This document shows, piece by piece, positions 20,686-23,131 of a DNA stretch of 64,000 bases; within the stretch, counting starts at the first letter, position 1; each line of letters opens with the position of its first letter. This DNA is from Actinoplanes siamensis (GTDB taxonomy: Bacteria; Actinomycetota; Actinomycetes; Mycobacteriales; Micromonosporaceae). The stretch covers positions 1 through 64,000 of the forward strand of contig NZ_BOMW01000037.1 in NCBI RefSeq assembly GCF_016862395.1, given 5' to 3'. Below the pieces are notes generated by a model. That model made no database searches. It worked only from the letters and a program-made list of their open reading frames with translations, and was not told the DNA's origin. Made by a program: the position numbers and the translations under genes.

Positions 20686-20781
20686 GTAGTCAGGCTATCT
20701 GCTAACCAGCCTTCCTACCTAGTGGGGTCGGGAAAAAAGTCGGGCGAAGCGGTGCACAGGGACGAGGTGGGAGGCGTCGAT

Positions 20782-21303
20782 GTGGGTGTGACCTTCGAGC
20801 AATTCGCGATGGCCCGCCTGCCCAGCCTGCTGCGCTACGCGGTCGTCCTCACCGGCGACCGGCATCTCGCTCAGGACGTGGTGCAGGAGGTGCTGGCCCG
20901 CGCCCACGTCCGGTGGAAGCGGATCAGCGACGCGGACTCCCCCGAGGCGTACGTGCGGCGCATGGTGCTCAACGAGTACCTGTCCTGGCGGCGTTCCTGG
21001 GCGGTCCGCAACCTGCACCTGGCCGGTGAACGGCTGGTCGAGATCGACGACGCCCGCGGCGGGGTGCACGACCACGCCGACCGGATCGCCGAATCCGACG
21101 CGCTGTGGAACCGGCTGTCCGCGCTGGGACGGAAACAACGTGCCGTGCTCGTACTCCGCTACTACGAGCAACTGGACGATGAGACCATCGCGGACCTGCT
21201 CAACTGCTCCCCGGCCACGGTACGCAGCCAAGCATCGAAGGCACTTCGAACGCTCCGGCTGGAGTCGGAGCGACAGATTCAATTTGCCGAGGAGAAGTCG
21301 TGA
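20782..21303 (+). CDS. ECF sigma factor, SigE-type family
   Basis: The 173-residue sigma factor has region 2 (FAMARLPSLLRYAVVLTGDR, HLAQDVVQEVLARAHVRW, and SPEAYVRRMVLNEYLSWRR) and region 4 (LSALGRKQRAVLVLRYYEQL, then DETIADLLNCSPATVRSQAS). This is the actinobacterial SigE-family layout. Of several in-frame GTGs, 20782 is chosen because GGGAGG (20769-20774) lies seven bases upstream; earlier starts at 20662, 20752 and 20767 lack one. The stop overlaps the next start (GTGA). In this family the following gene commonly encodes a membrane protein that may act as regulator. The promoter it recognises was not identified. Confidence 0.88.
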   Translation: MGVTFEQFAMARLPSLLRYAVVLTGDRHLAQDVVQEVLARAHVRWKRISDADSPEAYVRRMVLNEYLSWRRSWAVRNLHLAGERLVEIDDARGGVHDHADRIAESDALWNRLSALGRKQRAVLVLRYYEQLDDETIADLLNCSPATVRSQASKALRTLRLESERQIQFAEEKS

Positions 21304-22088
21304 CCGATCACGGTGACCGGCTCCGCGCGGCCTTCGAGAGCCGCGAGTCACACACCCCTGACCCGGGCGAGGTGTACGCCCGGGTCGTCGAACTGTCCCG
21401 CAAGCACAAGTGGCGCCGTCGTGGCGCGACCGTGGCCGGGGGCACGGCGCTCGGCGCCGGCCTGATCGCCGCGGTGGTCAACCTGCCGGCCGTCCTCCCC
21501 GGTGGCCAGCAGGACGGGACCGCGGCCACGGCGCCGATCGTGGCCGCGGCCCCCGCCTCGCCGAGCGCGAGCCCCGAGCCGACCCGCGAGTGGGACGCCT
21601 ACTGGGGCGCCGGCTACGGCTACGAGGAGGCCGTCGAGCTGGCCAAGCTGTGGAACCTGCCGACCGCCGACATCGGCGCGGTCAAGGCCGAGGCCGGGCG
21701 CCGGCTGCTGGCCGGGCAGACGCTGCCGGTCCGGCCGACCCGGACCGACGAGATCCCGGACGCGGTGACCGAGTTCTTCAGCGCCGGGTACGGCTACGAC
21801 GACGCGGTCAAGCTGGCCAAGCTGTGGAAGCTGAAGACGCCGTACGACGCCAAGGTCGCCGGCGGCGAGAAGTTGCTCGCCGGCAAGAAGCTGCCGTTCA
21901 AGCCCAACCCGGCGACGGCCGAGGAGAACCAGGAGAGCGTCCGGGTGGATGCCTTCTTCAACGCCGGCTACGACTACGACGACGCGGTCAAGCTGGCCAA
22001 GCTGTGGAAGCTGAAGACGCCGTACGACGCCAAGGTCGCGGCCGGGAAGCGACTGCTCGCCGGCGAGACGCTGCCGATCAAGCCGTGA
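21300..22088 (+). CDS. Membrane protein with three extracellular tandem repeats, sigma-factor partner
   Basis: The 262-residue product has a cytosolic segment of about 45 residues, one transmembrane helix (about 46-70), a Pro/Ser/Thr linker, and three repeats of about 47 residues (roughly 98-146, 156-202 and 216-262). Each has an aromatic start, A-G-Y-x-Y-(D/E), a conserved (A)V-x-LAKLW, and a Leu-Leu-Ala-Gly then Leu-Pro ending. Copies 2 and 3 are nearly identical; copy 1 has drifted. I do not recognise the repeat. Position and topology suggest an anti-sigma or co-sensor role, but no zinc-type anti-sigma motif is present. GTGA overlaps join it to the genes on both sides. Confidence 0.8.
   Translation: MTDHGDRLRAAFESRESHTPDPGEVYARVVELSRKHKWRRRGATVAGGTALGAGLIAAVVNLPAVLPGGQQDGTAATAPIVAAAPASPSASPEPTREWDAYWGAGYGYEEAVELAKLWNLPTADIGAVKAEAGRRLLAGQTLPVRPTRTDEIPDAVTEFFSAGYGYDDAVKLAKLWKLKTPYDAKVAGGEKLLAGKKLPFKPNPATAEENQESVRVDAFFNAGYDYDDAVKLAKLWKLKTPYDAKVAAGKRLLAGETLPIKP
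21794..22039 (+). repeat. 66-bp perfect direct repeat, 180-bp period
   Basis: Bases 21794-21859 recur without change at 21974-22039, encoding YDDAVKLAKLWKLKTPYDAK and the next two residues. Perfect identity at synonymous sites points to recent duplication or gene conversion between repeats 2 and 3. Confidence 0.9.
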
Positions 22089-23131
22089 CACCGGGGTTGC
22101 GCCGGCGGACCGGCTTCGAGATCGAGCTGATGGCCCCTGCGGGGGTCAGCCGGCGCACCCTCGCCAGGGAACTGGCCGGGCGCTGTGGGGGCAGCGTCCG
22201 GCCCGTCTGGCATCACGACAGCGAACCGTCCCTGGTCCCGGGGCTGGGGCGGTTCCTGCACCTGACGCAGGCGTTCGAGGTACGCCGCCCGGACGGCGCC
22301 CTGCTGTGCACGCTCGCCGACGACATCACCCTGCTGGCCGGCCTGGACCCGGCGGCGCCCGCCCGGCCCGGATGGTTCCGCGTCCTCACCGACGACCAGC
22401 GGCTGCTCCGGCTGCTCGCCCGGCACGGCAACCCGGGCGGGACGATCGACACCGTCCTGCTGGGGACCGCCGCGCTGTGGGGCAGCGAGGTGCAGCGGCA
22501 CGGCGACGTGTACCGGCTGAACGACGCGGCAGACGTGACGATCGCCCTGGCCGCGCCGCTCGGCGGGGAGCGGGAACGGCCGTGCGAGATCATCACGCCC
22601 CCGCTCACCTCGGATTTCGAGTCCTCGCTGGAGGAGTTGCTGGCGCCGGCCCGGGAGCTCGGGTTCACCGTGCCGCGGGAGGCCGCCGTCCATCTGCATG
22701 TGGACGGCGGGCCGTTCCGCGCGCCGCGCGCGCTGGCCAATCTGGTCCGGCTGTTCGCCTACTGGCGTGAGCCGTTGCGGGCGGTGCTGCGGACCAACCC
22801 GGCGTGCCGGCGGCTCGCTCCCCTGCCGGGCCCGCTGGTCGAGGCGGTGCGGGGCATTCCGTCGTCCGGCGAACTGCGCGCGGCCGCCGAGAAGGGGAAG
22901 CTGACGAAGTACTTCGACGTGAACCTCACCCAGTTGCTCACGGACACCCCGATCCGGGACACCGTCGAGATCCGGATCCTGCCGGGGGCCATCGACGCGG
23001 CCGCGATCCTGGACCGGGCGGCGCTGGTGGAGCTGCTGCTGGACCGGTGTGCCGACCCCACGCCGATCCCGCCGGGCGACGATGTGGACGGGCTGCTGGA
23101 GCTGGCCGCCGAGGCGCTGGCCGATCGGTAG
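22085..23131 (+). CDS. Amidoligase-like enzyme (glutamine synthetase-fold COOH-NH2 ligase family)
   Basis: The 348-residue product begins RRRTGFEIELMAPAG, the opening of the putative amidoligase family. RPVWHHDSEPSLV, FLHLTQAFEV, ERPCEIITPPLT, AAVHLHVDGGPF and a late VEIRILPG follow; these fit the acidic and histidine metal/ATP-site residues of the family. Members are predicted to join a carboxyl to an amine with ATP, in peptide tagging or cell-wall chemistry; few have been tested. The GTG start at 22085 overlaps the repeat-protein stop (GTGA), so it is translated with the sigma factor and repeat protein. That pairing makes the repeat protein, or something it senses, a candidate substrate (inference). 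Confidence 0.75.
   Translation: MTPGLRRRTGFEIELMAPAGVSRRTLARELAGRCGGSVRPVWHHDSEPSLVPGLGRFLHLTQAFEVRRPDGALLCTLADDITLLAGLDPAAPARPGWFRVLTDDQRLLRLLARHGNPGGTIDTVLLGTAALWGSEVQRHGDVYRLNDAADVTIALAAPLGGERERPCEIITPPLTSDFESSLEELLAPARELGFTVPREAAVHLHVDGGPFRAPRALANLVRLFAYWREPLRAVLRTNPACRRLAPLPGPLVEAVRGIPSSGELRAAAEKGKLTKYFDVNLTQLLTDTPIRDTVEIRILPGAIDAAAILDRAALVELLLDRCADPTPIPPGDDVDGLLELAAEALADR

Follow-up and report, generated by a model that had tools for sequence, protein, structure and literature searches.

The GS-like amidoligase family Amidoligase_2 (Pfam: PF12224) was reportedly predicted by Iyer et al. in 2009. In the literature we found no PF12224 amidoligase with a known substrate, and neither the literature nor solved sequence relatives revealed a PF12224 enzyme shown to modify a protein. 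The closest mechanistic analogue of such an activity is the ATP-dependent isopeptide formation on protein lysines by the Pup ligase PafA, which shares its fold group with the depupylase Dop. In graspetide RiPP systems, ATP-grasp ligases crosslink repeated core motifs of a short precursor peptide. On the regulatory side, many ECF operons contain an extra downstream gene.

The window, a stretch of 64,000 nucleotides from Actinoplanes siamensis, contains at 20788-23131 the genes for a SigE-family ECF sigma factor, a membrane repeat protein and an Amidoligase_2 enzyme, see Table 1. No paper on this operon was found in the literature. The original prediction described three coupled genes joined by GTGA junctions, and both 4-base overlaps are present (21300-21303 and 22085-22088). 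The sigma-repeat overlap recurs in 64 of 67 loci and the repeat-amidoligase overlap in 63/67, thus the arrangement is not due to chance.

Table 1. Features of the operon and its promoter, in positions of the window.
Feature	Position	Strand	Basis or remark
A-tract, 5' of the -35 element	20733..20738	+	kept in most orthologous loci
-35 element TGCACA of the conserved ECF promoter	20753..20758	+	
-10 element CGTC	20775..20778	+	
SigE-family ECF sigma factor	20788..21303	+	TIGR02983; start kept across loci
Membrane protein with cytoplasmic N-terminal sigma-partner domain, single transmembrane segment and three repeats that are predicted to lie outside	21300..22088	+	
N-terminal cytoplasmic segment, residues 1-41, candidate anti-sigma domain	21300..21422	+	weak similarity; neighbouring sigma genes
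Transmembrane segment, ~residues 42-62, after RRR	21423..21485	+	sequence; RR in 80/81 homologues
Repeat 1, residues 99-146, invariant Lys 129	21594..21737	+	
Repeat 2, about residues 157-202, invariant Lys 185	21771..21905	+	
Repeat 3, residues 217-262, invariant Lys 245	21948..22085	+	
Amidoligase_2 enzyme, 348 aa	22085..23131	+	PF12224; motif invariants; GS-type fold

The first gene matches TIGR02983 (NCBIfam) with 145.2 bits against a cut-off of 141.55 and contains Sigma70_r2 and r4_2 (Pfam), i.e., regions 2 and 4. Its start was originally placed at 20782, where an in-frame GTG is also possible, but the start kept across loci is the GTG at 20788. This start lies only 9 bases after the conserved -10 element, so the operon mRNA is probably leaderless. 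Three loci (L143, L145 and L146) are second sigma-repeat pairs with a shorter sigma factor (151-153 aa) and no local amidoligase. AMIS_57590 is listed as a SigE-family factor (PMC13251363). The genome carrying locus L097 (G144) resembles A. missouriensis, with an SrtE homologue near 55 kb, as AMIS_500 would presumably be, and the sigma factor of L097 may by position be AMIS_57590. Another paper (PMC10733313) concerns an unrelated sigma factor and was rejected as an account of the one in this operon.

Upstream of the sigma gene, the promoter has the order A-tract, TGCACA, N16 and CGTC. The TGCACA-N16-CGTC motif is exact in 42/67 trio loci, and most of the remaining loci show small variants. The strict motif including the A-tract occurs once in the genome of the window, at this operon. 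The relaxed motif TGCACA-N16/17-CGTC gives 29 matches in the same genome versus 31 for a reversed control; it is therefore uninformative without the A-tract, and a wider regulon based on it was rejected. The operon is probably autoregulated from this ECF promoter, and we infer that the promoter is recognised directly by the SigE-family factor.

The same promoter is found at repeat genes outside the operon. Nine genes in related genomes (L147-L154 and L144) encode stand-alone repeat membrane proteins with 1-3 repeats, usually from a leaderless GTG start, and neither a sigma nor an amidoligase gene adjoins them. Exact TGCACA-N16-CGTC lies just upstream of eight of the nine. In 1.67 Mb of strand, consisting of stretches chosen around trio, pair and stand-alone repeat genes, the 52 exact matches correspond to the 42 trio loci, two sigma-repeat pairs and the eight stand-alone genes. 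As this promoter is common to the operon and 8/9 stand-alone genes, the sigma factor probably controls a repeat-protein regulon. In one genome (G253, L194:1501-2582) the motif also precedes an extra class E sortase gene; among eight genomes checked, only this one has a second copy of the sortase.

The second gene product was originally described as a single-pass membrane protein with three unrecognised repeats, a description that agrees with the RRR followed by a hydrophobic stretch, with the repeats delimited by an iterated HMM and with the absence of a Pfam or NCBIfam family for them. The positive-inside rule predicts an N-in/C-out topology from the sequence. The common twin arginines fit this same rule, and one homologue (G059) has no clear RR before the hydrophobic stretch; Tat export was therefore rejected. 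The middle protein has only weak, sub-cut-off matches to known families in Pfam and NCBIfam. In the family sample, other low-scoring matches to the full protein fall chiefly within the N-terminal region, and the examined ones mostly come directly after other SigE-family/ECF sigma genes; residues 1-41 are weakly similar to these proteins. The N-terminal segment is thus a probable partner of the ECF factor and a candidate anti-sigma domain, with a co-encoded sigma factor and a predicted cytoplasmic N-terminus and transmembrane helix as the traits of this type. Across loci, the repeat proteins have 200-380 residues, are membrane or secreted proteins and end mostly in LPxxP.

The repeat is ~46 residues long and present in three copies in the protein of the window. 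Repeats 2 and 3 share 89% DNA identity, so duplication or homogenisation of the array is recent. In the structural model, each repeat forms three short helices (block pLDDT about 70-94); there are no convincing fold relatives, none being above Z 3.6, which does not prove a new fold. A search of 34 repeats against Pfam at E 10 gave no match apart from one chance match, and the repeats match no family in NCBIfam; no solved structure is related by sequence, and the matches to ubiquitin and cytochrome were rejected as they are at chance level. This is a previously unnamed three-helix repeat.

Trp20, Lys29, Gly33 and Pro43 are invariant over 236-237 repeats, which come from homologues that are not independent. 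Lys29 is present in 236/236 repeats and never replaced by Arg, while Lys and Arg swap freely at columns 34 (115/68) and 35 (86/136). This is as expected if the amine itself matters, and the pattern is suggestive of amine chemistry but not proof of it. Lys29 could instead be structural, as the helix spacing puts it on the face of the invariant Gly33 and Leu36.

The third gene matches PF12224 with an E-value of 2.3e-16 (60.8 bits, cut-off 22), and distant orthologues also exceed the gathering score. At E <= 10, PF12224 is the only match in Pfam and there is none in NCBIfam; no Pup ligase family is found. No signal peptide is apparent. The motifs GFEIE, HxDxE, RERPCE, HLH, DVNL and EIR are conserved over 44 orthologues, and the residues invariant in these 44 homologues, G10/E12/E14 (GFEIE), H43/D45/E47, R163/R165/E168, H203/H205, N280 and E295/R297, are candidate catalytic residues. 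The model (pLDDT 72.8, built on 8 sequences) aligns to glutamate-cysteine ligase, YbdK, Dop, PafA and glutamine synthetases with Z 8-10 over about 185-216 residues. In total, 122 chains reach Z >= 8, and the best Foldseek match is GS (E 1.8e-3). The structure prediction hence agrees with the ATP-dependent ligase fold of GS type that was first assigned to this gene. A pairwise dN/dS of 0.19-0.30 shows purifying selection on the gene. No match was found in plasmid sequences, and phages contain only remote amidoligases with about 26% identity.

The distribution was studied in samples of 301 family, 395 class and 396 phylum genomes; these are partial, so exceptions may exist. The trio is present in 66 of the 68 Actinoplanes genomes of the family sample, and a small number of distantly related actinobacterial lineages have it as well. 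The remaining two Actinoplanes genomes (G056 and G177) contain neither repeat nor amidoligase and have no PF12224 match at all. Outside Actinoplanes, only two genomes of the family sample (G024 and G059) have repeat and amidoligase. Of the 395 class genomes, the same five are matched by the repeat profile and by the amidoligase, including the window's own. The remaining four belong to two families and have the amidoligase adjoining the repeats; the sigma gene is also present in the three loci having enough upstream sequence. The phylum sample adds one genome, G947, with four repeats followed by the amidoligase. A 55-residue amidoligase match in G202, without a PF12224 match, and a partial repeat match in G880, antisense to an aldo-keto-reductase-like ORF, were treated as spurious.

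In all samples, every genome with a confident repeat has an amidoligase adjoining a repeat, in line with the coupled unit of the original prediction. In some Actinoplanes, additional sigma-repeat pairs or stand-alone repeat genes have no amidoligase nearby, but in every case examined their genomes carry one elsewhere. The genes flanking the trio vary within the genus, and any single one is common to at most 26/67 loci; PadR, ABC and LacI-type genes occur in a minority of loci, mostly of close relatives, and were rejected as members of the unit. Nor do the loci share an exporter, a precursor peptide or a second biosynthetic enzyme as a conserved neighbour. The coupled unit of sigma factor, membrane partner and amidoligase, and the obligate partnership of repeat and amidoligase, are well supported, and we hold both with high confidence.

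Loci without the sigma factor indicate which part of the unit is the core. In G059 and G947, the repeat protein is directly followed by the amidoligase, and a signal-peptide-like N-terminus replaces the sigma-partner domain. No sigma match was found beside these repeat loci, although the G059 contig is short. Because repeat and amidoligase are both kept here without sigma or partner N-terminus, they form the core, and sigma and partner domain are a regulatory layer on it. Another genome (G235) has a broken amidoligase next to its main trio and an intact one in a second repeat locus without a sigma gene (L129:4422-7568), where a five-repeat membrane protein, a glutamate racemase and the amidoligase lie in a row. 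The racemase matches TIGR00067 above the cut-off with both catalytic Cys motifs present. Its position between repeat and amidoligase, a single case, suggests D-glutamate as the carboxylate donor, which we regard as a lead only and an improbable one. In L142 and L038 (an Actinoplanes liguriensis draft) the amidoligase reading frame is interrupted, which could reflect a sequencing error or a real pseudogene.

We suggest that the enzyme covalently modifies the repeats. This is the best explanation, with an even chance of being right. The amidoligase would be a cytoplasmic ATP-dependent carboxylate-amine ligase acting on the repeats carried by the adjacent membrane protein and, in some genomes, also on those of stand-alone repeat proteins encoded elsewhere. 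Most likely, each repeat would receive the amide on its invariant Lys prior to translocation of the array, and the finished repeats would sit outside the membrane; that Lys29 is the site is a tentative assignment, somewhat on the doubtful side. The N-terminal cytoplasmic segment would be the partner, probably the anti-sigma, of the ECF factor, and the ECF factor would transcribe its own operon and other repeat genes from TGCACA-N16-CGTC promoters, so that production of the array could respond to the state of the array itself. Taken to its full extent, i.e., a GS-fold amidoligase joining an amino acid, possibly D-glutamate, which a co-encoded racemase would supply in one genome, to the invariant Lys of every exported repeat, with the ECF factor reading the array through the membrane protein, this would be a new bacterial post-translational modification, a scenario that is speculative and quite unlikely to hold in every part. 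Against modified repeats, a reaction in the cytoplasm has to precede export, and the Sec route admits small modifications only. The pairs L143, L145 and L146 lack a local amidoligase, and the stand-alone repeats could act as partners rather than as substrates.

Repeat and enzyme were never found apart, which makes the repeats the probable target of the enzyme; co-inheritance by itself also fits a regulator-enzyme pair. The original prediction left open whether the repeats are modified or the enzyme makes the sensed signal. In the latter case, the amidoligase would make an exported small peptide or wall-derived amide, and the repeats would be an anti-sigma sensor with the invariant Tyr8, Trp20, Lys29 and Gly33 as ligand site. 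The layout would then be a classic ECF one with an extracellular sensor and an apparently autoregulatory promoter, the invariant aromatic and basic residues suit ligand binding, and the racemase beside one amidoligase fits a small-molecule substrate too. However, sigma is dispensable while repeat and amidoligase are not, as G059 and G947 retain the pair although sigma and an anti-sigma-like domain are absent there, and a conserved exporter, precursor peptide or second enzyme is missing beside the operon. This favours modified repeats and makes a sensed product unlikely. The strict pairing and operon coupling would also fit an enzyme and its anchor, where unmodified repeats serve as docking or regulatory scaffold that brings the amidoligase to the membrane to modify another envelope component, e.g., lipid II stem peptides; the motif before the sortase gene in G253 points to the envelope as well. 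Direct docking is awkward with repeats predicted outside and the enzyme inside, and the single-repeat genes that stand alone and share the promoter resemble clients rather than anchors, so we consider a scaffold rather improbable. Finally, since a further downstream gene is common in ECF operons, an unrelated metabolic amidoligase could be carried by genetic linkage. This is already disfavoured by the co-occurrence data and very improbable, as the pairing holds across families and in the distant G947 and outlives the absence of sigma, while the flanking genes are not conserved.

If the repeats are modified, ECF signalling would gain a covalent-modification layer, in a system that nearly the whole genus Actinoplanes shares. 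With candidates for substrate and residue as well as natural controls (paralogous repeats and sigma-less loci), the locus makes the chemistry of PF12224 directly testable.

Compared with known systems, the enzyme is a member of Amidoligase_2 by its match above the cut-off, its GS-type fold and its ExE, HxH and ExR motifs, but it has a dedicated repeat-protein partner under ECF control, and we found no such partner described for the family. The enzyme belongs to the same fold group as Dop (Z 9.8) and PafA (Z 8.2), but differs by its PF12224 family, its repeat partner, the ECF control and the absence of a Pup-like protein. While Pup is a small disordered modifier ending in Glu/Gln, the partner here is predicted to consist of folded repeats, with LPxxP at the C-terminus in most cases. 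As in graspetide systems, an ATP-dependent ligase lies beside a dedicated repeat-bearing protein; however, the ligase is of GS type and not ATP-grasp, and the repeats are long and folded within a membrane or secreted protein of 200-380 residues. The TIGR02983 sigma factor, the overlapping single-pass membrane partner and the apparently autoregulatory ECF-type promoter are shared with operons of a SigE-family factor and a membrane anti-sigma. The locus is distinct from these in the repeat array on the sensor side, in the obligate amidoligase and in a regulon that apparently consists mainly of repeat proteins.
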